Source: Phlegmacium glaucopus
Lineage: Eukaryota > Basidiomycota > Agaricomycetes > Agaricales > Cortinariaceae
Reading direction: 5' to 3'
Length of the DNA: 64,000 bases
Assembly (NCBI GenBank): GCA_015039465.1
Contig: MU130381.1
Coordinates: 50,080-114,079 of the forward strand
The notes under the pieces were generated by a model, which made no database searches, had not been told where the DNA came from, and saw only the letters and a program-made list of their open reading frames with translations. Of this stretch, positions 1 through 35,400 are shown one piece after another (the stretch's first letter is position 1; each line of letters opens with the position of its first letter). The translations under genes were made by a program, and so were the position numbers.

Positions 1-740
1 GACTACTCCGTAGGCTAATAGTAGCAACTACCTGGGGGAGTTGTGACCGTTGTAACTCGGTCGGCTACAACTGCAACAACCCATCCTCGGAGTGACAATC
101 ACAAGTCCTAGGGATACTGGAACTCCTCTGTCGTAACCTTCGGACTTTTACCTTGTAACTCCCGAGAACCGGACATCATGGTCATCATGAATCAAATAGT
201 GTGCAATTTATGTGTTAAAACTCCAATTATTGTACAATTTTTGTACAATAATTGGAGTAAAAAAAAACCGGCGAAGCGCCGTTACTGTAGTACTAATGCA
301 TGTTTTATTGTCAATTATTGGATTCATTGATTGTAGTGTACTTCCGGGTTTGGTAGTAGTGCAATATTTGTCGGGCCCAATCGTTTTTTTGGGTCGGGAT
401 GTAGCATGCACAATTTAAAAAGATATGGGTTCTTCGCCGCAAAACAACTCTTGTTAAAGAGTACAACGTGATATGTATGTCAGGTGAAAGTGCCGACCAG
501 ATTAGCACCCGAAAGATCGAGAACAACTGCGTGAGTAGGATGGGTTGGTAGCTTGTCGTAAATTGCAACCGTACGAAAAGAGAAAAAGCGAAATAGAGAA
601 GTAAAGCCATTGTAGTAGCAACGAGTCATAAAGCGGTCACAGAGTGCGATTAGAAGTTTTCGGTCATCCCTAAATAGAAATTATCTTCGAATGTTACTAC
701 GGAAAAAGATAAAAATCCCCAGCTTGAGCGGACATGTGAT
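1..740. other. Polarity-inverted block 1 (complemented but not reversed)
   Basis: From the window start to somewhere between about 665 and 750 the text reads sensibly only as its complement taken left to right. In that reading 401-408 is CATCGTAC, matching the target duplication of a hAT element whose other side is in normal polarity at 865-872, and 482-664 is an open exon for a hydrophobic protein. The stretch 403-630 is a direct copy of 15,628-15,850, which lies in the other inverted block. The left limit is outside the window. Open frames read in the ordinary way here are shadows. An assembly error is the likely cause. Confidence 0.85.
482..664. CDS. Membrane-protein gene copy 1, exon 5 (in parallel complement only)
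   Basis: Read as the complement left to right, an intron acceptor (CATACAG) ends at 481 and an open exon follows, starting STFTAGLIVGFLALVDALIL and continuing through a second hydrophobic stretch (GMLFSFSLYLFISV). It probably ends before GTAGGG near 664. The same exon occurs in copy 2 at 15,708-15,870. It continues exon 4 of the disrupted gene at 869-957 once the block is flipped and the hAT insertion removed. Two membrane segments are evident. I do not recognise the family. Confidence 0.65.
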
Positions 741-2186: not shown

Positions 2187-5100
2187 CGAGCTGAGAGCCC
2201 GAGGCGGGCGACGTGAGATTGAAATACAACACGAGCGAGAGGTTTGGTGAAAATGTCGGCAGTGTTTTCAGTTCCAGGAATGTGATTGACAATGAAGGAC
2301 TTGGATTCGATGTGGGAGCGGATGAAGTGGTAGCGTATGTCGATGTGTTTAGCCTTTCCGTGATTGGAATCATTGACGGACAAGCATTTGGCGCCGTTGT
2401 TGTCGGTGCAGATAACGAGAGGACTGGGACAATCAACTTGGAACTGAATGAGAGACTGACGGAGCCAGACACCTTCTTGGATGGCTCGAGTGAGAGCAAC
2501 ATACTCGGCCTCTGTTGTGGATAAAGCAATACAGTTCTGTTTCTTGGCAGACCAGCTGATGGGTCCACCACCCATCGACCAGAGGAAACCAGACACGGAA
2601 GCCCGATCCTTTTTGTCACCAGCCCAGTCTGCATCTGACAGACCAGAGAGTGCAAGACCGTGGTTGTCGCCGCCATAATGGAGGCGATACGCCCGTGTTC
2701 CTTTGAGATAACAAAGTACTCGCTTGGCGGTGGCGAAATGCTGAGGTTCAGGTCAAGAGCAATGTTGAGAAAGCAAGAGGACAGCGAAGGAGATGTCTGG
2801 GCGAGAGCATATCTGAAGAAACAGCAGAGACCCCACCAAGCGCTGGAATGACTTTGTGAGATTCACTATGGGTGGATATGTGTCATCAGGAGACCCGAAA
2901 GGTTGATCATGATCGAGTGGAGTTTTGACAGGGTTGCAATTTGTGAGGTCGTATTCGGCAAGGAGGGTGTCGATGAACATCTCTTGATGTATCCAAAGTT
3001 CTCTGGTCTCCAAACGACGTTCAAATTGAACACCGAGGAAGCAACGAAGAGGACCAAGGTCCTTGATTCCGAAGGCCTTTTTGATTTCGCCTTTGATGAA
3101 ATCCAGAAAGGGCATTGAAGTGCACCCTGATAGACCGTCATCGACGTGCATTGCCAGAAGACAATGCACTTCCTCCCCCCCCCACGATCGCTTGTAGACA
3201 AAGACAGCATGATCAAACTCGGATCGAAGGAAGCCGAGACTTTCAAGAACCTTGCGAAGGAGGTTGTACCAGATTAGGCTGGCTTGCTTCAGGCCGTAGA
3301 GCGATTTCAGCAAACGCCATACACCCTTAAGTCCAGATGGAGAGGTGTAACCGGGAGGATAACGCATGTAGATGGTGCGGGTGAGGTCCCCCCAGAGAAA
3401 GGCGCAAGTTGCGTCGAAACACTCTAGGTGCCAGCCATTCAGAGCAGCGTAAACTGCTATGAAACGGATGCTGGCAGACTTTGCAACAGGAGCGAAAGTT
3501 GCGTCGTAGTCAACGAAAGGCACTTGAGAAAACCCTTGCACGACTAGTCGTGCCTTGTGAATAGCTGGACCACCATCGGGGTCAAGTTTGAACTCGAAGA
3601 CCCATCGGTTACCAATGGCTCTCCTTCCCTCTGGTAAGATTTCTTCCACATACACCCCCATTGACTTCAACATCCCCAACTCCTTCTCCTCCACTCTCTT
3701 CCATTCTTCTGCATCTGAACGTGCCATAGCCTCTCGATGATTAGCAGGAGGGGTATTCATGTCATAGCTGGGACTGTGAGGGTTACGAGCAATGTCGCTG
3801 CGCAAGGAGAGAAGCGCCAGTTCGAGACTCGCCTCTGAGTCGCGCTGGAGGTAACTTTGAACGTCGAGGGAAGCAGCGAGGGATGTGAAGTTGTCGACTT
3901 CTTCAAATAACTTCGGCAGTTCGCAGCAGAGATAAGAGTAATCTGTTATTTCATCATGACCCTTCATTGACACTGCATCATCCTTTTCGACTGTCAAGGA
4001 GGCTCTTTCCATTGCAAGCCGTTCGACTGCGGCTCTCCTCTCTTCGCACTTCTCTTTGTTTACCCTGATTTTTTCTAGATGTTCTTTTGCAGATCAAATG
4101 GAATCAGCATAATCACGTCCTCTAGTTGTGAGCAGACGATTACTGCGAAGAGCAGGAGCGAACTTGGTCGAATCGGGAGGAGATTGCAAGGTGATATTGG
4201 GCACGGGAACATCAGACGAAGATGTTTCGTCAATAGGGAGTGAGGTCGCAGATGGAGAGTCTGAAGAGGGCTCAAGAACAGAAGATGGGAATGGGAGTGA
4301 AGAGTAGTCGACAGGAGTGGAGGAAACTTCATGAATTGCATGATAGGGGATATTTTCGTCGAAGATAACAGATCCCGAGTCGAAGAATTGATGGGTTGCG
4401 AGTGATCGTACCCGGTATCCTCTACCCGAAGGGGGATATCCCATGAAGAGACACTCGATGGATTTTACCCCCAACTTCGATTGCAGTTCAATGGGAACAT
4501 GGGCAAAACATCGAACGCCCCAGACTCGCAAGTGAGAGACGTCGGGCTTATGATTTCGAAAGATTTCAAAAGGAGTGGTGTTCTTTGGAAGGGACGATGT
4601 TATTGTGAGATTATAGAGGTATGCAGCGGTGAGTGCTGCTTCGCCCCAGTATGTGAGAGGGAGCTGAGCGGCAGTGAGCATCGCGAGCATCCTCCCCTGT
4701 ATGGTTCGGAACACGCGTTCCATCTTGCCATTTTTCCAATGTTCGTAACGCGGCACAACGTCACGCTCAATCCCATCTCTCTCAAGGGCCTGAATAAATT
4801 CATTGCTCCCGAGTTCGCCACCTCCATCAACTCTCAACTTAATCACTTTTTCCCCTGTCTTTCGTTCCCAGCTGGCTTTTGTTATGCACCAAGCTTGGTA
4901 AGCCTGATCTTTTCTTGAGAGACAATGGATTTTCAAAGCATCAGAGAAGTCGTCAAGGAAACCGATGAAATAGAGTTTCCCATGCGGGGTGGCGACTGGG
5001 AATGGACCACAGAGATCGCTGAAGATGAGTTCAAGCAGCCACGTTGACTTTGGTGTGGAGGATGGCGGGTTTGGGGTGCGAGAGTGCTTTGCAATAATGC

Positions 5101-6805
5101 AGGGTTCGCACTTGGATAGCTTGTCGCCAGGAGGGAATGCAACGCCCTTCACAGAGTGAAGTAGGTTTTTCGTAGCATCCTCACCAATATGTCCCATATG
5201 ATGATGCCATAGGTCCATCGATTCGGTAACTTTGCTGAAGAAAGCAGTTTTGATGGGGTGAATCCCCGGTGCGGGAATAAACTCGACATTTACAAAGAAG
5301 AGCTTATTTTGTTGAGTACCCTCATATATGTCTTCCCTTGAACCGTCATTCATCTTTCTAGTTATCACAAACTTCCCATCCTCGAAGATACATCCCACCT
5401 TACTACCGCTTGCAGTCATTCTCCCGACTGACAGAAGATTTACGCATGCGTTGGGAGCATGAAGACAATCGTGAAGCTTTACAACTGTTGTCTTGCCTCT
5501 CAGAACGAAACGCACAAGGCAGTCACCGCTTGCCATGGTCTGTAGTATTCCATGATTAGCGGTGGTCATGTCTCGAGCCTGGGTCACTTCGTAGGACCAA
5601 AAGACTCTTCGGTCTTTGAGCAAGTGAGACGACGTTCCGGAATCCAGGAGATTTGCAAGATTTTGTTTGGAGAAGAATCCTGCAAAATCGGCAGCGGTAG
5701 GATCGTAGTCAATTGAGGCATTTGACACTTCATTAACACGCATAGTTGTATCATCTGTTGCAGGTGCAATATAGCAAGGATCAAATAGCACGCAAGATAA
5801 GTCACCCATGTAGGTGTTATCAGCATTTGGTGCGGTCACTGCCCTGACAAGACTAGAGACAGAAGATGAGGCGACATGATCAGGGGAAATTAATGAAGTC
5901 GAAGCAGCGGCCATTTCAGGTGATGCTTTAGCTTTCCCTTTTGATTTCGATGGCTGACGCTTCCCTTCCATTCCTCCACCTTTGGCGAAACAATGGTCTC
6001 TGTCATGCGATTTTCCTCCGCAGTTCGAACACAGAACGCCTGAAGGGTTCTTGTCATGTTTTCGGATTGAATCTCCTGCATGATTGCAATATTCGGATCC
6101 TGGACCAGATTTCGAAGGTCTCGAAGACTCAATACACTGGCATTCAACAACTAACCGGTTGATGATCCGATTCAGTAGAGTGTCGGGAGCAGCAGGAACG
6201 ACGGCAGTGGATTGACTATCAGCGAAGTCTTGGTTGATCTGCGTGAGGAGCATTTGAAAATGTGGCCAGGAACCATTCGAGGGAAGTCCTCGAATAATAG
6301 AATGAACCATCTCATATTCGGAGTAAGGTACGTTCATTTCAATGAAACGTATACGACCGGTTTTGAATTCTCCAAGGTATCTTTCTAGATCGCAATGATC
6401 TTTGAGTCTCACGTTTGACAAACGATCCCGAAGATCAAGTTGCAACATGACATCTTTTCGACTATAGAGATCCTTCAAAGTTTCCCAGACACTCCAAGCA
6501 GTAACCACAACACCGTGAGGCAATAGTGATAAAGTGACGGGAGTTATGCGTCTCTCTACTATAGTACGTGCTTTTGAATCAGATTTCCACCATTCGCGAA
6601 ATGCAGCGATGTCATCTGCAGTCGAGAGCGGGGTAGGAAGGGGGGGCTGAGGTTCAATTGGAAATGGCGAGTAAATATTTGCATCGCCTTCTACGTGACC
6701 CCAGTAGCCTTCCCCTTGAAGAACTTGACTGATTCCTCGTTTCCAGGTCTCATAATTGGACGGTCCAACAAGTAGCTCTATATGGTCAAGTTTGATGGTT
6801 GACAT
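2183..6805 (-). pseudogene. Copia gag-pol polyprotein with two in-frame TGA stops
   Basis: One frame of 1,541 codons runs from ATG at 6805 to the stop at 2183, broken only by TGA at 4094-4096 and TGA at 2753-2755, with no frameshift. Domains in order: gag; a CX2CX4HX4C zinc knuckle at residues 259-272; aspartic protease motif DSGTSSH near 388; an HHCC integrase zinc site at about 534-569; integrase catalytic D596, D660, E696; then after the first stop a reverse transcriptase with MHVDDG at the catalytic site (usually YVDD), and after the second stop RNase H with TEAEYVA and TDNNGA. Both stops fit CGA to TGA changes, expected for deamination of methylated CpG. The element cannot make an intact polyprotein without readthrough. 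Confidence 0.93.
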
Positions 6806-7337: not shown

Positions 7338-8160
7338 CCCAGCCCTCTTGCAGGTGGCTTGGGTACATAGTACTATACTATAACATAATAATTTACTATA
7401 CTACAAAGACAATGATAATATGGGGTTGCACAATCCTCAGTATGAGTTCTAAATACTGAGAACTCTGAATGTGTGACATTCAGTCACATGTGGTGTCACG
7501 GCGTGACACAGCCAATTTCTTGAGACATCGCATTTGTGGTCTCCACACCTCTGAGATACAAGAAAAATTATGTTGTATTTAACAATAATAAGAAGTAATT
7601 ATACATGCCTAAGATATTCCTTGCAGGAAAACATTATATTTAACCCAAAAATGCGAAATGAATCTTAATTGCCTGCTAAATATGGGGCTCCAAAGAGATT
7701 GGACATTATTCCTTCAACCACAACACCTATAAGCATGATTTGCAGGAGGATTTTTCTTAACATTTAAATTCCAATTGATCCACAAGTCCAAAATTTTGAT
7801 TAGTGCCTCCTATGTCAGGTGTAGACCCTCAAAATGTGCACTTTAACAATGGTTAGAGGCCAGGTAATTAAAATTTTGAACTTAGTTAGAATGGAAGAGC
7901 CATATACAAGTAGTTTTGTAGTTGGAAATCTAATGCGTAAATCCCGATGTAAGTGAAAATAGCCCATGGAAAGAGTACGGACTACGGAGACATCTCCGAC
8001 ATTTTCCAATTGTATTGTCCAACATGGTGAAGGAATGTACAGTACCCATCTATGCCCACCATGTCGATTGATATCAAATTGCTGCATCGATAGCTAGACA
8101 TGTATTGACAATGAATGTCCTCAATTGTATATTTTGATCATCGTTTCGAATACTTAACAA
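7338..8160. other. Interior of the TIR element, no gene
   Basis: AT-rich transposon interior without a credible coding frame. The part 7421-7845 has a mirror-image (reversed, not complemented) homolog at about 15,906-16,300, and 7838-7895 has a direct homolog at about 16,792-16,860. Confidence 0.6.
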
Positions 8161-8997
8161 AAATGACTTTATACCTGACCAACTTTGTGTCAAAGAAGTG
8201 ATGTTCGATAACCTGCCTCTGCCTTTCTGATGCACGTTTTCATGGATACAAACACGTGCCAAGGTGTGCCGTGGCTGCCAATTTTGCCGAATCTTGCCGA
8301 ATTGATTGAAATGTAATGCCATCACAGTGCACCGGCAGCCTCGGCATGGTCAATATCACCGGGAACGCATCAATTTCCGGGAACTGGAAGTGTACTTGGG
8401 AACTCATCCAGTATTTTTTGGAATAGACACTAAGTATCAGGGAATGTATATTAAATCCTGGTAATACAGGCTAGTTATGTGGGGGAACTAATTAAGCATT
8501 GGGGAACACCACTTATGTAGCTGGGAATATGCCTTTAGCCCATAGGAACAAGCATTTCACACTTGGTAAAATCAGAATTAGAGTGTACTTTTGTCAGGGA
8601 ATAAGAAAAATGTGAATCTATTGACCAAATACATGGACTATATACTGGAAATAATACTTGTGCAATTGGACAGCCATACTGATGGTGGTGGTGATGGTTT
8701 GATATAGTTCTTTGAAGAGCTACAGTTCTTGATAAATGCTTCAAAATAAATTCTTGTAGCTCATATTGGATATCTTGAAATGTAGCTTGAGTATCCAAGA
8801 TGTTGGTCGCTGTCAGCAAAGAAATAGTGTTTCACAAAATAAGAGATTCACAGCAAATAAGGATTCCATTTTCCAGTATTTGAGAGGTATAAAATTTTAT
8901 TATTATTGTCCAACTGAGGCCCCCATAGATATGTCGTAAGTAGAAGAGTGTTCCCTGAATCGAATCATAGGCTATATACACCCATAAGCTCGATGGT

Positions 8998-10407: not shown

Positions 10408-11259
10408 AGGACCCTGGGCAATAGGCCAAGAGGCAGGGTCCCAATCCGGACAGGATTTGAGCTTTTTTGACGGACAGCTAGGGTCAATCCGGACAAGATT
10501 TGCCGAATTTTTTTTGGCAGCCAGTGCCAGAATCCAGACAAGTTTGGAGAAATTGTTATAGGCTAGTTGCCTATCCGGACAAATTTTAGGGTACTAATAT
10601 GCTATGATATGGTGTAGCCTGTTGAGCGTATGAATGACTCAATATTTGATAAGCTGCCGGTTCGATTCCCCCTCTGATTATTTTTTCTTTGCTGTATAAC
10701 TTACTAATAATAATGATAATTTTTGTAAAACAAACATTCACATCTCTCAGTTAGGCATTCTTGACCCAGAAACTCCTTTAGCTCCTACAATTTCTCTGTC
10801 TACTTGATTCTAAGATCTCTGAGCCCCAAGCTCAAGGACTGTCTATTGAACTTTCACAGAGGGACCTGTTACATTTCCGTGATTTCCAGAAGGGTGAAAC
10901 ACAGCTCAAGGCTGCTATCAAGTTGTTTCGAAAGCGGGGCGGAAATCTTGAAGGGGACGATTAAGAAAATAGTTTTATTTACTTGTAGATAATAGGATAT
11001 GCTTATTACAAGCCAGAATTGTGCTTTTAGAGGTGGGCAAGAGCAGTACAGACCTTTTTTGAGCCCTAGGAGGCCTGATCTACGAATCCGGACAAAATTT
11101 GGGCCGAAAAATAGCTAGGTCAACAATCCAGACATATTTTTGGAAAATTTTGGGATCCTAGGTGCAATCCGGACAAGAATCGCGCTGAATGACGACGCCC
11201 TGTCCGGACAAAAAGTTGAAATCTGGGACCCTGCCTCTTGGCCTATTGCCCAGGGTCCT
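10408..11259. mobile_element. hAT-type MITE, 852 bp, with intact target duplication
   Basis: The ends are inverted repeats of about 35 bases starting AGGACCCTGGGCAATAGG (10408 onward, and its reverse complement ending at 11259). An exact 8-bp direct duplication, ACTATAAC, flanks it at 10400-10407 and 11260-11267. There is no transposase. The subterminal regions carry about eight copies of a motif close to ATCCGGACA, in the manner of hAT transposase-binding repeats. The insertion looks recent because the duplication is perfect. Confidence 0.88.
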
Positions 11260-11836: not shown

Positions 11837-12223
11837 TCAAGCATGCTGTCCCTCGCGACTAGTAGTAGTAGTAGTAACACCACCCCGCGCCTGTAAATAA
11901 GCAAGTGACCTCCACCTCAACCGTCGAAAATTTTGTACAATAAATTTAAGATTCCTAAACGTGATCGAAACCTTCCAATACGCACTCCAAAAAACAACCA
12001 AAGTCCCAACAACAGCGACGAACATTAAAACCAAAGGAAAAGCCAAGGAAGTGCCAAAGATGTAAAAGGACAGTATCACGATTGACACGATGAACAGCAA
12101 GGTCGCAGCAAACTGTAATTGCTCACACACTGAGAGGTAGTACCGAAAGTACTCTGGGGTGTAATCCTTGTTCCCGACTATTAGAAACCAATCTTTGCGA
12201 GTTTCAAGAGAACAAGATGCCCG
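11837..12223 (-). CDS. Membrane-protein gene copy 2, C-terminal exon
   Basis: An open exon on the minus strand begins after the acceptor TACTGTTAG at 12224-12226 and ends with a stop at 11837. It reads KDWFLIVGNKDYTPEYFRYY, then SVCEQLQFAA, then two long hydrophobic segments, a basic stretch (FRRLRWR) and a Ser/Thr tail. When inverted block 2 is flipped in place, this exon lies downstream of exons 1-5 of copy 2 (14,801-15,870), after a transposon-derived tract. The protein would have about four membrane segments. I do not recognise the family. Confidence 0.6.
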   Translation of the reverse strand, partial: RASCSLETRKDWFLIVGNKDYTPEYFRYYLSVCEQLQFAATLLFIVSIVILSFYIFGTSLAFPLVLMFVAVVGTLVVFWSAYWKVSITFRNLKFIVQNFRRLRWRSLAYLQARGGVTTTTTSREGQHA

Positions 12224-12358
12224 CTAACAGTATTGGAAGAAGACGGCTGACAGTCTACCGCCAGTACGCTTGGTACATCTAGGTATCTGGCAGTTGCATT
12301 TTTAGTTTAGTCCAAGCTTGTCTCTCGCCATCGTCTCTTTATGATAACCTCGCTCTTC

Positions 12359-14470
12359 TACCCGCTGTGATGAGTGGGAGGCCACAGCCGACAGAATCTC
12401 CTAGCAGTCGGACGGAGAACCCCGCTACCTTTCCGATTTCTTAGCGTTGTCTGTTCAGTACGGCAAGGTCGCCCACGCCAACTAGGGCTACGGCTTCCCC
12501 TATAGCTATACTCACTCTTACCCCTACCTTGACTCGGTTTCCAATAACTTTCGGTCGTTGTTGGATGACAGCGAGGGTAGCGATGGGGCGGCGGAGGTTG
12601 TAGAGGTTATAGTTACCGGTCGCCGAAAAGTTCTAAAGTACAATGCTAACTAGGATTCTTACGAAGTAGGAGTGGCCGCCGAAACCTAGGATGCTGAAGA
12701 TGTCGGTTTGAACATTGAGAACTACTAGGAGACCGCAAATCCCGAATGGCCGGCTTCTGTTGTGGAAGCCGTTAACCATCCTAAAACCGAGCCTTAGGCC
12801 GTAACAGCCAACTACGAAAATGTCTCCACAACGTCCGACTTTCACGTTCACACTCAAAAAAAAAAAAACCAACAAAAGGGAAGGAGGAGCTCGAGGAAAA
12901 AATATTACAAAGAGTTTACAGAAGACTGTTAAGAAGAAGATCTGACCGTCGCACTACCGGGAGGGCTAGGTCGTTTTCTGCTTGCGCTGAAGAAGATGAT
13001 GCTTTGGATAGTATTGCGGTTGGTAGGGTTGCAGACGCGGGAAGCACATATTTCGGGGACTCTTCTTCTAACATAGTTGCTCCTCGGTACCTCCTTTTTA
13101 ACGTTTCCCGTTTGCGTTTCGACGACGACGATGGAGAGGTCTTTTTGTCGGTTCGTGTTCATGGTAGTGTAGTTGATGCGGTCAGGGGCGTAGACGACCA
13201 AGTGGACGACAACGAGATGGATCAAGTATACCTCGAATACCTATAGGAGTCATAGGAATAGGCATGGGAATAATATAAGGAAGAGGTATGCCGTACGGCG
13301 GAAAAGGAATAGGAGTTGGGGGCCGTGGCGGATATAGTCGAGGTTTTGTTTTCGATAGCGGGTTTCGAAGGAGTAGCAGTTGCTGTCAAAGAAGAAGTAG
13401 CGACTCAGTACATGGAGGTAGTTGCGGCTATGGCCCAATAGGAGGTATAGGTATGGGAATGGGAGGAGTTGGAATGCCTATAGGTGGTGGTGGTGGTGGT
13501 GGAGGTCCTCCTATAGGTATGTACGGTGGTGCTATATAAGGACCAGTTGTCGGTAAATCGCCTAATGGTGGACCTGGTAGTCCATCATTGGGCATAGGCA
13601 TAGGAATAATAGGAGGACAAAAATTATGAGGAGGAGGACAAGGAGGTGGGTGCGGATGATGTTGGCATAGATGATGGTGATGATGCGGCCGCGGAGGTAG
13701 TAGTAGATGAAGAAGACGTGGGAAAGGTTTTTGACGACGACGACGAGCACTCTCCGTTTTTGTTCAAGTTCTATGGTTCAAATTAATAATAGTTATACCT
13801 CCTCCTCCTTCAAGACATAGCGGATGCTGCGGATTGCTACATACATGATGGTAAAAGGTTGGGTAAGGTGTCTCGAGTAACCAAAAAAAAAGTTATCTTC
13901 TCCTCTTTTGCTTCCTTTAACCTGGGACTCATAGAACTCTACAAATTCCGCGTCTGCCTTCAATAAAGCTACAGAAACCTAGTTCGATCTTCACTATAAA
14001 GTTCAAGACATGGGTGCGATGTTGGTGGCGGCGGCGGCGGCAACCAGCGAAGATGATCGTCACGATTGCATCGCGGCGGCGGCGGTGGTGGATATCAAAG
14101 ACAAGATGGCCTTTATTGGCATAACCTTCAGCTGTGACGACTTCGTGAAAGTTTAGGTCAATATAGATGATGACATGCAACTACTTAAAAAATAAGGTAG
14201 ACGACATAAAATTGTAGGAAAGTGCTAAGTGTCGCAGGAACGCGCTTATTCTGCACGGTAGCTAGTTAAGGACAACTATGATGCCGCTTATGGTACACGC
14301 TATTTACATCTGACGCCAAATTCTTCGTAGTTCAGTTCCACTTCTTTGCTAAATTTGAACTTGGTGCGTTCAAAGAAGAGCAGTGACCATTTTGATGCTG
14401 CTCATGCTCACTCTTCGTCCCGAGACGCCGCCATCTACTACCACCACTCTATCACCACCTCGCATCAACT
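12359..14470. CDS. Pro/Tyr-rich zinc-finger protein, readable only in parallel complement
   Basis: In the left-to-right complement there is an ATG at 12359 and four exons, 12359-12850, 12943-13839, 13898-14173 and 14234-14470, all in phase 0, separated by introns GTGAGT...CTAG, GTATGT...ATAG and GTACGT...ACAG, giving 633 residues. The N-terminal part is acidic and Ser/Pro-rich. The middle has long Pro/Tyr/Gly tracts (GYPPYPYPYPPQPYGYPP and a run of eight prolines). A basic patch KRRKRRK follows the second intron. The C-terminal exon has a zinc-binding pattern C-x4-C-x13-C-x2-C (residues about 558-580) followed by RLRFKKHQ. It is probably a nuclear DNA- or RNA-binding regulator; the family is not recognised. 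In the ordinary reading of either strand no gene exists here. Confidence 0.85.
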
Positions 14471-14800
14471 ACTTACTATTGTCTAAACGTACTAATAAAA
14501 AAATTAAACAATCATAGAATAAAAGAACTTGGGGGGAACGTGTTTTACTCGATTGGGAACCCCACAACAACAAACAAAGAATCTACCAAAAAAAAAAGGG
14601 GGGACCAAAACACAAGTGAACATGATCATTTTACAAGCCTAAAGGTTGTTTAGTTCAGTTCAACTACTTTTTCAGCACAGGGATTGCAAAAGTATTTTTA
14701 TAGTGTTGGTACGACAAATGAACTCCGTTTGGACTGGTCGGTCAGAATACCTAATCTGGAGGGGGGGTTGGGGGGTTAGGTAGAGAGCAGCAACGAGTGT

Positions 14801-15870
14801 TACTGTAGGGGTTGACTTCTGAACCTCAGGCGACGGCTCAAACCGCCCCAGTCCGTCTTACAATCCTCGTGGCAATATAGTTGTCTACGAGTTGGTCCAT
14901 GAAACAAGAACTTGCGGTAAACTGGTACGCGTCTAACACTTTGCGCATAAAGAAACGACTGTCGCTGGTTGTAGAACCTATGAGTTCGATGTAAAGTTCT
15001 ATAGGTTATACTCGATGTTCTTAAATAAAACTTCGTAAACAGTTCTTGACATCGAGAAGTTGCTTGATATAGCTCGGTAGTGGTGGTCGTAGTCAGAGTA
15101 AACCTAAACGGCCCCAACTTCCACCGACGATCATGATCACCACCACCACTTCAAGTACCCTGTCCACACATTTGTTGTATAATAATACAATTGATATCAC
15201 TTTTTCTTTTTCTTGCTAAACATGTCAATGTGGCTTATGGATGGGTAGAAAAGTAGGTAGTCTACCACTAGGATTGTAATATCAGCTACGCCAAAGGTTG
15301 GTTCGATAGACGTTAGTTCCACATTACGGTAGTGCCGCACGAAGTCGATTGGGACAGTTCCGGGGTGGAGAACTCTTGGTAGATGTTTCAGACTCGCCAA
15401 AAAACTTACATGTACATCTCTTAGACGTATGAGATGTCTTAAGAGAAGCAAGATGATGGCCACTATTTTTCGGACAATGCTGACCATTCCCTCCGATGAT
15501 TGCCGACGAAGATAAATATGCTTGTGGATAAAGGTAATAATCACTATGTCTTCGGCGGCCGTCGTAGGAGTCTACCGTTGCTCTTTAAGATGCTACGAGA
15601 GTGAGTTGTCAAGTTGTACGAACATCAGTAGCATGCACAATTTAAAAGATATTGGTGTCTCCGTCGCAAAACAACTCGTTAACTAGTACCAACGTAATAT
15701 GTATGTCAGGTGAAAGTGCCGACCAGATTAGCACCCGAAAGATCGAGAACAACTGCGTGAGTAGGATGGGTTGGTAGCTTGTCGTAAATTGCAACCGTAC
15801 GAAAAGAGAAAAAGCGAAATAGAGAAGTAAAGCCATTGTAGTAGCAACGACCCGCTCCGTGTCGGTAGTC
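14801..15870. CDS. Membrane-protein gene copy 2, exons 1-5 (parallel complement)
   Basis: In the left-to-right complement: ATG at 14801; exon 1 14801-14897; intron GTACTT to ACAG; exon 2 14964-15164 (ILDTQATFQDIQYELQEF); an exon 2/3 junction I cannot phase; exon 3 from about 15,202 to 15484; intron GTAAGG with branch-like CTAAC; exon 4 15543-15631; intron GTACGT to ACAG; exon 5 from 15708, with two membrane segments. Exon 5 then runs into a 25-base homopolymer and transposon sequence, so the gene is interrupted there. The C-terminal exon lies at 11,837-12,223. The neighbour upstream is the zinc-finger gene. Function unknown. Confidence 0.7.
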
Positions 15871-15880
15871 GTGGGTTGTG

Positions 15881-15905
15881 AAAAAAAAAAAAAAAAAAAA
15901 AAAAA
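15881..15905. repeat. 25-base homopolymer at a gene/transposon junction
   Basis: Twenty-five A in the text separate exon 5 of membrane-gene copy 2 from a fragment homologous to 7421-7845. It could be a poly(A) tail of a retroposed fragment or a simple repeat. Confidence 0.8.
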
Positions 15906-16300
15906 CGTAAAACTCCTAGATATAACTGTCTCTCCCGTGATTAATTCTAAAACCTGAACATCTAGTTAACCTCAAATCTAAGATTCACTTTAGGAGGACG
16001 TTTAGTACGAGTACCTACAACACCAACTTCCCTATTACAGGTTAGAGAAACTTCGGAGTATAAACCGTCCTTTAACTCTAAACAAAGTGTAAAAACCCAA
16101 TTTATATTACAAAAAGGACATTCCTTATAAAATCCGTACATATTAATGAAGAATAAGAATTTATATCGTGTTAAAAAAACCATAGAGTCTCCACACCTCT
16201 CGTGTTTACGTTACAGAGTTCTTTAACCGACAGTGTATGTGACTCCTAACACGTTGGGGTAATCATCATTAGTACATAGTCCACTACACTGAGTCTCAGA
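15906..16300. mobile_element. Mirror-image copy of the 7421-7845 transposon fragment
   Basis: Read backwards without complementing, this stretch aligns along its length with 7421-7845. Shared runs include GGGGTTGCACAATCC and CTCCACACCTCTGAGATAC. It belongs to inverted block 2. Confidence 0.85.
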
Positions 16301-16920
16301 CAAGTATGAATCCAATAACCGAAAAAGGACAAACGAATAAACACTGATTGATAGTACTACCCTCGGTCCTTCGTTTGTTACTAGTTATTGAGTAAAGGTC
16401 GTTACACAACAACAGTATATAAACAAAACTTTTCCAAAAACTCTATTAAATATTACAAGTGAATAATTAAATGATGGGTAATGAACACGAATAGGTAAAT
16501 GGGTTTTTGTAGGGATACTTTGGAGTATTTTAACTTCTGGTCAGTGACAACAAACAAAACCTTCGATTTACTGTCCAAAGACTCAAGTTTCCACAAAGAA
16601 GGAACCCAGGATACCTCCGCGAGACCGATGTTATTACATTTCTCCAACTATGTGTATTCTTATAAAAGAGTTATTTTTATATATATTTTTTTAATATTAT
16701 CATTATTATTATGTTCCAAGACGTTTTAGTTATAAATAGAAAGATTTAATAACTAGTTAAAGTAACAACCACGAACCTTAAAATAAAAACTGACTGCACT
16801 TTAACATGGTTAGGGGCCAGTAATTAAAATTTTGAACTTGTAGAATTGAAGCAATATACAAATAGATGATTTTATCTCTGCAAATATAATCCTAAATTGT
16901 AGAAAACTAAACCGCTTATG

Positions 16921-17130
16921 TGAACAGATATGTATACGCCCTAATTTGAGCTAGATAATTGTGATAGATATCACTGAACTCAGTCACGGTATAATGGACT
17001 ATATTTAGATTGTTACTGTACCTAGATAATTGTGATAGATATCACTGAACTAGGTAACAGTAAGTTAGGGTGCAGTAAAGAAGTATATCGTAATTACTCA
17101 CCTCAGTCACGGTATAATGGACTGAGGTAG
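16921..17130. repeat. LTR-like repeat of a second family (solo or fragment)
   Basis: It has the same modular layout as the copia LTR, with different loop sequences: a composite at about 16,951-17,001, H1 at 17,021-17,054 (CCTAGA...CTAGG) and H2 at 17,101-17,127 (CCTCAG...CTGAGG). No adjacent polyprotein is found. The exact ends are unclear. Confidence 0.55.
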
Positions 17131-18833
17131 AGTAGTAGGTTAATCTGGTATATATACAAGTGGAGACAATGGTCATGGCTGGTGGCCTCTGTTACTACCT
17201 CATTTGGTCTTTGGTGGCCTTTGCTCTAAATCGCAACATAAATCCCATCTGTTGTGAAGATAATAGCCCAAGAAGGCACAGGTGGAAGCAGGAGATGCAC
17301 TGGTGATTGTCATGGGTAAACTATAAAAATTTCCAGGTTTGGACCCATGGACATGTACATCTAAACATTCTCTACATTTTGCAATTTTATTTGTCCGAAG
17401 TGATGAAGAAATGAATAATCTATTGGCCCACCATGGTAGTACAATAATTGATGTGGAGGGAATTGAGTTGCCTAATTTGGACATATTCTAAATGTGACAA
17501 AACAGAGCAACCATGAAGGAGGTGTAGCCAGGCCATTTCTCAACAGATTTTGAGAAAAAAATTGCAAAAAAAGAGCAAAAAAAGAGCTACATGGTTCAAA
17601 GCAGAATTTTTTTGAAAATACACAAATTCCTTGTGATAAATCCTAGAAGGATCTGAATATCCATACCCTTACCTTGTTCCTCATATCCTCCACTTAGGCA
17701 TCTTTGGTGCTTATAAGCTCATCCTTGATAAGGTTAGTGGGATTGGAAGACATATTACTGAGATGATAAGCAGGATTGGGAGGATATAGATGATTGACAT
17801 CAGAATGTATAAGATCTTTGTCATAATATTGCAATTTTCCTAGAATATTTTATTTATTTAGGGGTAATATTCAAATTTAATGTATTATATACTGTAATAT
17901 GTATACTTCACAAAAAAAAATGGAGGGAAACAGTCAAGAACTCAAGGAACTGCAACTGTATTAGTAAATGTGACGCCAGTGGCTGTGTCACACAGTGTGA
18001 CTGGGTCAGGCTGTTACCCAGCCTCCACTACTACTAAGACTAGTAAAGTATGTAAACAGTAGGAGCAAATATACCTCTCCATTCTCATTTTTTAATCCTT
18101 TATTAATTTATCTTTTGTTTTTCACTTCTTTACTCTCTCTATCTGACAACAACAAAACCGCTAATTGCTTGTAAAAAGCAAAATATATTGCATTTTGTAA
18201 AATAATTATTAATAATAAATTATTTTATAGATAAATATTATTTTAATTAAAAAATCTAAGAAGAATGCGACGATGTGCCTGGGAAAGTGATGGGGTATCA
18301 ATGATCTCTATAAACAATGCGACAAACGCCTGCGAAGTTCGGGGGTATCAATGATGATCAGTTTTATGTCTAAGCATTTATAAGTGTTATATAAGCATTT
18401 GTAAGCATTGGTAATATTTTATAATTGGTCAGCTGCTCCCACACCGTCGTCCCATTATACTGTTAGCCCAGTGTCACGCATGTCACAAATCGTGACATCC
18501 CAGTAACTTCCATCTAAATTTCGCTTTTTTGGGTTCTTTTGTAGGGTGCTAATGTTGTATTAACTTTGCTTTTTTGAACACTCCCATCTGCTAATATTAG
18601 CTGTGATGTATATTGTCTTTTCTGTGTGTTAATTGAACAGCTATAACCTGTCTTTTGGGATCTGCTGCAATTCTTTTTTTCAATCCTCCTCTTTAGGGTG
18701 TATTTTTTAATTTTAATTTTTGTTTGGTATTTGTGTGGGGTGTTCCTTGGTATAGCTATTTATTATCTACACAGTTGATAGGAACATGGGATGAGAAGAT
18801 ATGAAAATAATATACACACTTAATGTGAGAGAT
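17131..18833. other. AT-rich transposon-derived tract without a gene
   Basis: Low-complexity AT-rich sequence. A 94-codon frame on the minus strand (17,200-17,484) has no recognisable domain. Short stretches such as GTGTCACACAGTGTGAC near 17,984 recall the terminus-like sequences near 7500. Nothing here supports a gene. Confidence 0.5.
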
Positions 18834-32423: not shown

Positions 32424-35400
32424 CTAGGGTAAGGCATCAGGTGGTTTACAATCCCTGTGGTAGATGGCACCCGTCCGTGAGACTATGATCTGTTGGATAC
32501 TGACATTGGCAAGGCCATGAGATAATGGAACAACATTCAAAGGCGCCAACGACTTGCGGCAGTACTGACATGTTCCTCGGCGCGAGACCCAACCAGATGT
32601 TCGCTCACGCGTCACTTGCGCGACAATGTCAAATAAATCTCTATCCACCAGGTGCTTCAACATGATCAGGAGATCTTCATCTGAACGGTAGGATTCTAGC
32701 ATCCCGGTCAGAATTATTCGGAACTCGTCGTAATGTGATCCTGTTGATTGCGGTGTGGAGTTGACCAATCGTTTGAACAGCCGAGGAAAGGACACAGCGC
32801 TGGTGGACGTGACCGTGACAAGTGTGCTGAATGTGGTCTGGACAATAGATCGTAAAGAGGATCGAAGGTGCTCCACTTTGTCGGCGTCACTAGATTGGTG
32901 ATTTTGCATGGACCCAGAAATGATTTGAACACTGTGGATTTGACTGTTTAATAATTTAAACCACATGTCTTCCAGGGGTACTTCTATTGAAGATCCCTCA
33001 GAGCGTTCCAAACAGATATCGCGACTGACTTTCGCAATGGCTTGTAATGAATCTAGTTCTCGATCAATACTTGGCGAATATGGGTCAAGATTGAGTATCT
33101 CCAGAATTTTAAGTGATATTCGCTTCTGAGACGTATCCGCCTTCAGGAGAGCTCCTTGAGGGTCTCCTTGCCAATTAATGGCCCAAACAACGGCATCATA
33201 CACTTCATTAGACTCGCAAGTTTCCAAAACTTCAGAAAGGTCGAGGTTATCTTTGACAAGGTGCTGCAAAGTTGGAATGACTTCTGTGGGATGGAAACGA
33301 CACTGGAGAGCGATAAACAACTGTTGAAGACGCTGCGGCACATTGTGACTGTGACGGGGTTTTGGCCCACCCTCTTCGTCACTTGGCTGCAACAGGGTTT
33401 GAAGGTATTCGTGACGATCCTTGTCGGGGTCGAGATTTATATTAAATATTTCCAGAGCTTGGCTGTGAAGCTCAGGGATCAATCTGTCGATAAGAGCAGC
33501 TGTACCTGCAATATCGGCATCTAATAGTCTGGGAAGAGATTCGGAGACGATGGTGATGAGCTCGTTTGGCAAAACACCTTTACTTGTGCGGGAAGACAGA
33601 AGAATGACTTCTTCAATCTTATCCAATAGGTCCAGAGATGTTGAATCGGGATCGTGGATATACGTTGATAGCAGCTGGGCCCATTGGTGATCACGATGAT
33701 ACCAGCCCCTAAGGATTCTAAAAAATCCAGCGTTTTCAAAAAGTTCAGTCACCCGCTCAATCTCATGTGGGTTATAATTAGAAAGGAGATATTCCGCGGC
33801 GAGTTGCCGATCCTCGCGGGTCTTGGCATCTGGATCCTCTGCAAGTCCAATTAAGACACTATGCAACACGGTAGGAGCGATCTCAAGAAATTGTTGGTAT
33901 TTCGGAACATTTCGGGCGATGAAAATGTTAACCAACGTAACATCCTCTTGTAGCAATGAGCCGGAAGACAAGATTTCCAGGAGAATCCGGACAATTACGA
34001 GGCGATTGACGGTAAGGAAATTATCATTGACGGTAAAGAAATTATCATTGAGGTGGGCGTCCTCGAACGCAATGTCAAGGGAGTGTAGAAACGACTCGGA
34101 GTCGAAGAGAAGTAGTTGGCGAACATAAGGGTAAGTTGGCTCTACCCCGCCTTCTTCGTCGGATGTCAAGACCAATCTTCCTCCTTCACCTTCTGGCCAT
34201 ACATTGGAGCGACCGGAGAACAAGAAAGTGTAAACTTTCCTTTTGGCATGAAGAGCTTCTTCTAGGGTCAGAGGATCTTCACTGGGGAACGTGAGCCCCG
34301 ACAGTGTGTTGGCCAAATAAGGATAAATTTTATATGCACTGATGATGTTAGCTTCCATGGTTGAGTCGAAGTCTACATGTGTTCCAGCTGTCTTCATAGA
34401 AGTAATCTGAGACCTCCTGTACTGCCGGACCTGTCGAATGAGGCCAAGGAGTATGACAACGGGAGCGACATAGTCGCGCATGGCACGAGTGTATACGTAG
34501 ATCAAAGCGTCGTATAAATGATATTGTTGACAGATCTGTATTGCTTGATTGAGATCGAGGCAAGAGGGGTCCATATGCCAGATGATACGTTCAACATGGT
34601 CTGGTCGCCCATCTTTTTCGTGCAAAGCAACTAGTTTTTGAGTGATCCGTGCCGGGACGTGCCGGATCTCATTGCTTAAAACAAACGGCTCCAGTTGTTG
34701 AAGATAAATGGAGGAAATTCCAGAATCGTCATATCGTTGGAAGAGGTCTTCAAACAAGAACTCGAAGTCATCCAATGCGACACAGGCGCGACAGCACACT
34801 GTAACAAGGCCTTCGAAAAGTGATGTACGGTCCACGCCTCTGTTATCCGGTGTAATGTGGGTGTTATCAGTCATTCTATCCTGGGAAAAGGTGTATTGGG
34901 TAGAGGCATCCATGAGGCTTCTTAGTTTTTCTCCGATTATTTGCTGTCTAAGATTGGGGTCATCAGGAAGATTGTTCCTGTTGCCAGGCGCTTCGTCGAT
35001 ATAATATGACAGAACCAGGTCAATTGCACCTAAGAAATCGCCATCTTTCACCAGGGAAAGCACACGGTCGGCCCATGTTAGCAAGGTGCCCACAACCAAT
35101 CGATCCCGTTCCTATGACATCGAAATGAGTAAATAGCAACCGTGAATGTGTTAAGCTCACAAGTAAAAACACTTTTCCCTTGTAGACACGGACGCTATGA
35201 GCGACTGGATCGTTGTCTGCTATATCAGTAGCAGTTGGCGATGCGAGAGATAAGCCTTTAAAAGTGATCTGATCGACCAATTTTGACACTTTCAAATCAT
35301 AGACTGCTAAATGACCACGGGTGACGACGATGATTTGCTAAAATCGCGGAGTTTAGAAAGACCCCGTATTTTATCTGCAGGCGAAAACCAAACCCACATT

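Follow-up and report, generated by a model that had tools for sequence, protein, structure and literature searches.

The anomalous block in the window, by which we mean the whole 64,000-nucleotide stretch analysed here (C147:50080-114079, from an assembly of 60.5 Mb in 259 contigs), is almost certainly an assembly error. Two pieces around a run of 25 A's are written backwards, most likely contig-end extensions from a long-read gap filler that carried out half of a reverse-complement operation. The anomaly is an artefact of the file and no biological feature, and we predict that the DNA in the organism is ordinary at this place. By protein comparison, the proteins of the window resemble those of agaric mushrooms; for one normal protein of the window, the closest match with a species name among the best 120 of 528 belongs to Crassisporium funariophilum (70%), and the closest without one reaches 91%.

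Layout and borders of the block

By scanning the window text with a strand-symmetric 5-mer model, we obtained one call at 12136-17157 and no other region in the window, positions 1-624 being missed. A second model run on a wider sample (174 kb of C147 plus parts of seven further contigs, of which four had been picked for matching flipped text) put the block at 12126-16805. Both pairs of model borders are superseded by the alignment-based ones, 12184|12185 and about 16794|16795. What the sequence-only reading had taken for a single block at 12300-16700 is in fact two inserts, neither assigned to a strand: insert 1 at 12185-15880 (3,696 bp), reversed in place and containing the greater part of a Cys-rich agaric gene together with a portion of the gene for a predicted membrane protein, and insert 2 at 15906-16794 (889 bp), reversed in place and made of repeat sequence. 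The block is divided by a spacer of exactly 25 A's at 15881-15905 (+ strand), presumably a former gap placeholder. An additional reversed insert, also without assigned strand, occupies window positions 1-624 (C147:50080-50703), with 2,085 N's immediately to its left, outside the window; the sequence-only reading had overlooked it.

As had been proposed from the letters alone, three repeats within the block mirror copies that stand in normal form elsewhere in the window (87.3-95.9%): 15126-15635 mirrors 865-1374 (95.9%), 14935-15095 mirrors 8678-8837 (95.7%) and 15907-16232, in insert 2, mirrors 7508-7836 (87.3%). Chance resemblance is ruled out by these mirror repeats and by the match of insert 1 to a second contig, C50. 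Elsewhere in the window, two long ORFs on the - strand (2753-4012 and 4094-6805) look like copia-type retrotransposon polyproteins when their translation is read by eye.

Over three normal stretches C50 and C147 run collinear at 98.1-99.7%, and, judging from this, C50 is probably the other haplotype of the locus. First, C50 24929-27184 corresponds to C147 60008-62263, and from C50 27185 on the match passes to C147 65959 and runs downward, read backwards. Second, insert 1 matches C50 27185-30877 at 99.3% over 3,700 columns when reversed, whereas as written it gives a 22-bp match only, with both strands searched by blastn. Third, for the left join of insert 1 the comparison with C50 gives a score of 78 of 80 in the reversed arrangement, one base in 80 then differing, and of 40-41 otherwise. 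No match past insert 1 was found between C50 30880-38500 and C147 60000-90000, so that insert 2 lies outside this comparison. Its right join was compared with the diverged copy 7737-7936, with a score of 55 of 80 when reversed and of 35-36 otherwise.

We scored 80 bases per join at the seven borders that had a reference copy to compare, and set four arrangements against each other: reversed, as written, complemented in place and inverted. Reversal in place fits at all seven borders, with 78-80 of 80 at six of them and 55 at insert 2; the three other arrangements reach 35-42 at every border. Moreover, each of the seven scored inserts adjoins an A spacer or an N run, and its opposite end joins a contig end. 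Outside the scored set, an eighth border (C184 near 433070) has the same orientation by blastn comparison, and the C219 block and a second C164 piece lie next to an A run or an N run. Judged from these sequence comparisons, both inserts of the block are reversed in place relative to their flanks and are not complemented in place. The earlier description, "complemented but not reversed", fits the block taken by itself and does not hold relative to the flanks.

The fault is reciprocal between C50 and C147, since each contig is backwards where the other is normal. On the one hand, C147 46329-47994 is reversed where C50 is normal (100%), and the 2,085 N's separate it from C147 50080-50703, that is window 1-624, which matches C50 14872-15495 at 100% when reversed, with a join of 80/80. 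On the other hand, C50 7442-11088, which a run of 25 A's adjoins, is written backwards against the normal text of C147 (99.1%). Between this C50 extension and its left contig end there is a true overlap of 258 bp (C147 42589-42846), hidden because the text of the extension is reversed. A forecast of its right border at 10808 proved wrong on account of this overlap, the aligned border being 11088|11089. We also observed a repeat element with direct terminal repeats of about 316 bp (LTR-like) at C50:7442-11088 and C147:41315-46424, one contig having it in normal form and the other with part of it reversed.

Genes within the reversed text

The complement text of 12359-14470 runs from an ATG to a stop through three introns (12851-12942, 13840-13897 and 14174-14233), all in phase 0, and encodes 633 aa with a Cys-rich C-terminus, which reproduces what the sequence-only reading had described. 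That reading had also proposed a search of the complement text against proteins; it returned matches to agaric proteins, the best being a Galerina marginata protein (E 4.5e-66). By comparing six homologues with the whole window by tblastn, we found all 15 matches on the complement text and none on the two real strands, in agreement with the statement that neither real strand holds such a gene.

The gene is not complete, contrary to what had been claimed. Its frame is open upstream of the ATG as far as 12194, its homologues have additional N-terminal sequence, and C50 holds further N-terminal sequence at 30.9-32.8 kb, collinear with homologue P0006, the gene continuing to about 32.9 kb. It is incomplete in C147 because insert 1 ends at the spacer before the N-terminal part held in C50. 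The part present in C147 spans 12194-14470, without assigned strand and legible in the complement text alone, the 5' part being lost at the insert end.

The expectation that two genes are affected was borne out by a second gene, for a predicted membrane protein, which spans the left border of the block. Its normal-text part lies at 12080-12184 on the - strand, where the ORF extends further left, and the remainder lies in insert 1. C50 reads this protein as one 191-aa ORF across the left-border point, and three homologues align across that border; the reversed reading of C147 has a frameshift within insert 1. A Pfam search with both hidden proteins gave no match above the cut-off and one sub-threshold hit to DUF3397 (E 0.022). 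Further along the window, a normal gene at 32424-35099 on the - strand matches agaric Vps8-type vacuolar sorting proteins.

Extent across the assembly

Exact runs of 25 A's occur 157 times on the + strand of the assembly and once on the - strand. This bias indicates that they are not natural runs, which would favour neither strand of the file. Exact runs of 24 A's number 0 and 1, and those of 26 A's 72 and 1, on the + and - strands respectively, so that the 60.5-Mb assembly holds at least 229 runs of 25 or 26 A's on its + strand. Runs of 26 and 27 would be expected where a chance A adjoins a 25-A spacer. Within the wider sample we found six A runs of 25 or 27, every other homopolymer run being 14 or shorter.

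On the same sample, six contigs together yielded eight calls by the flip model, one of which extends into the first 911 bases of the window. The model's 1-kb windows had a mean score of -21.6 in normal text (sd 11.7; overlapping windows, n=143), with 3.5% above 0; in stretches whose flipped state had been established beforehand, all 22 windows scored above 0. One false positive was found at C50 4949-5662 (score 16.1), a region that aligns normally to C147. When complement was compared with text by blastn, 75 matches joined a flipped to a normal stretch, none joined two flipped stretches and 6 were of other kinds, all of them involving C164:417343-417703, an uncalled tail just past a called block. 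When text was compared with text, 121 of 146 matches were normal-normal and 14 flipped-flipped; the remainder comprised 9 with a partly overlapping stretch on one side, one flipped-normal match (39 bp) and one flipped-mixed match. Together these comparisons indicate that the text of the sample falls into two states, normal and flipped. Genome-wide, a normal repeat copy had at least 43 matches, with 40 of 105 candidates scored, and a flipped stretch sharing part of those repeats had 6 matches including itself (5 candidates). Tandem copies of a unit of about 126 bp also form an array on C164 (414770-415736 and 417700-418389), part of which lies in a reversed insert.

We then sampled eight 25-A spacers from the genome-wide list, their flanks being unseen at the time of choice. 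Four had a firm flipped call beside them (on C5, C15, C62 and C148, with scores of 25.5-51.9). A fifth, on C130, had a weak call (16.3) at a distance of 87 bp, which we left out of the count because the false call on C50 had scored 16.1. At the three others (C41, C105 and C125) the flip model found no flipped flank, and neither did it at the 27-A run at C147:147683.

Biologically these findings mean nothing, and we give them moderate weight as a warning about data quality. Aligners and gene predictors do not see text written backwards, so that genes are lost without notice, and reversed repeats can be mistaken for new families. Gaps also remain open, since no overlap can form between a reversed end and its neighbour, as with the 258 bp on C50. 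Searching with reversed text offers an inexpensive way to screen for such faults. We tentatively suggest, at a little short of even chances, that a systematic software fault writes long-read gap extensions backwards, and that many stretches with genes are likewise reversed in other public assemblies from the same pipeline, unseen by aligners and gene finders, where a simple reversed-text scan could expose them.

Origin of the reversed inserts

In the mechanism that we propose, a gap filler would extend contig ends into a gap from long reads. Filler built on the opposite strand would then receive the complement without the reversal, so that the true sequence would end up reversed in place. The text would be identical if a filler of proper orientation had simply been reversed, and the exact operation is one that we infer. 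The 25 A's would stand for a 25-base gap placeholder. An error of sequence processing at gap filling or scaffolding had already been suspected from the letters, and this suspicion is upheld by the normal copy on C50, the one-strand 25-A spacers, the spacers or N runs at which the inserts end, and the recurrence of the fault on further contigs. Points against the proposed explanation are that spacers are written as A and longer gaps as N, and that some of the sampled spacers lack flipped text beside them. Insert 1 has 4 gap openings, two further inserts have 0 and 1, and normal stretches have 0, 1 and 7, which gives no clear long-read signature.

It is unlikely that the flip was made after gap filling, during scaffolding, polishing or file conversion. 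The A spacers beside retained N runs do imply that at least one step treated gaps unusually; however, the seven scored inserts each have a gap at one end and a contig end at the other, which is the geometry of gap extension, and a step acting on whole scaffolds would turn entire contigs.

We consider it highly improbable that the block is a complement in place, continuous with both flanks, produced when a filler that needed reverse-complementing was reversed alone. Read from left to right, the complement text does carry the Cys-rich gene, and the block by itself fits both arrangements. Complemented joins nevertheless score 36-42 of 80 at all seven borders, where reversed ones reach 55-80, and C50 passes from the left flank directly to the far end of insert 1.

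A real molecular event in the cell, yielding a parallel complement or reversed copy by "swinger"-like polymerisation or by a repeat that spreads in flipped form, is equally hard to credit. Such polymerisation has been proposed in print, according to the available part of one paper (PMC7027195), and several flipped stretches have repeat sequence in common, as the 14 flipped-flipped text matches indicate. Yet the flipped inserts stop at spacers or N runs in seven of seven scored cases, gene sequence is flipped besides repeats, one locus, present in two near-identical copies, is flipped at different places in each, and 157 spacers stand on one strand of the file against 1 on the other. A flipped transposon that spreads is likewise ruled out by the flipped gene sequence and by the ends at spacers or N runs. 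As far as that part of the paper describes "swinger" DNA and RNA, the likeness is that the text becomes recognisable after a systematic exchange of letters and switches abruptly to normal sequence; the differences are that reversal in place explains all seven borders here, that gap spacers bound the pieces and that a normal copy exists in the same assembly.

An ordinary chromosomal inversion, or another rearrangement driven by transposons, has a negligible probability even in this repeat-rich region, because an inversion is a reverse complement and would be visible to two-strand blastn, which gives a 22-bp match for insert 1, and because inverted joins have scores of 35-40 of 80 at the seven borders.

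An ordinary assembly orientation error is a segment inserted as its reverse complement. The fault described here is similar in that a contig-sized piece is wrongly oriented, and differs in that the piece is reversed without being complemented, so that its match is invisible to strand-aware aligners. No report of such an assembly error appeared in the titles and abstract openings of the best-ranked matches of a literature search.

The extensions that we propose also recall the gap filler PBJelly. According to excerpts of its description (English et al. 2012, PMC3504050), PBJelly extends both contig ends, treats any stretch of at least 25 N's as a gap, and keeps a gap open as "overfilled" if no overlap appears between the two extensions; an excerpt of the gapFinisher paper (PMC6733440) states that PBJelly gives short gaps a length of exactly 25 bp. 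Unlike PBJelly as described in these excerpts, the present assembly has inserts written backwards and spacers in the letter A instead of N, and we regard the common traits as a resemblance and not as an identification of the program. As far as those excerpts go, these traits are the extension of both ends, a gap unit of 25 bases and a gap that stays open without overlap between the extensions. The C50 extension with its hidden 258-bp overlap, left open beside a 25-base spacer, likewise resembles the "overfilled" gaps of that description.
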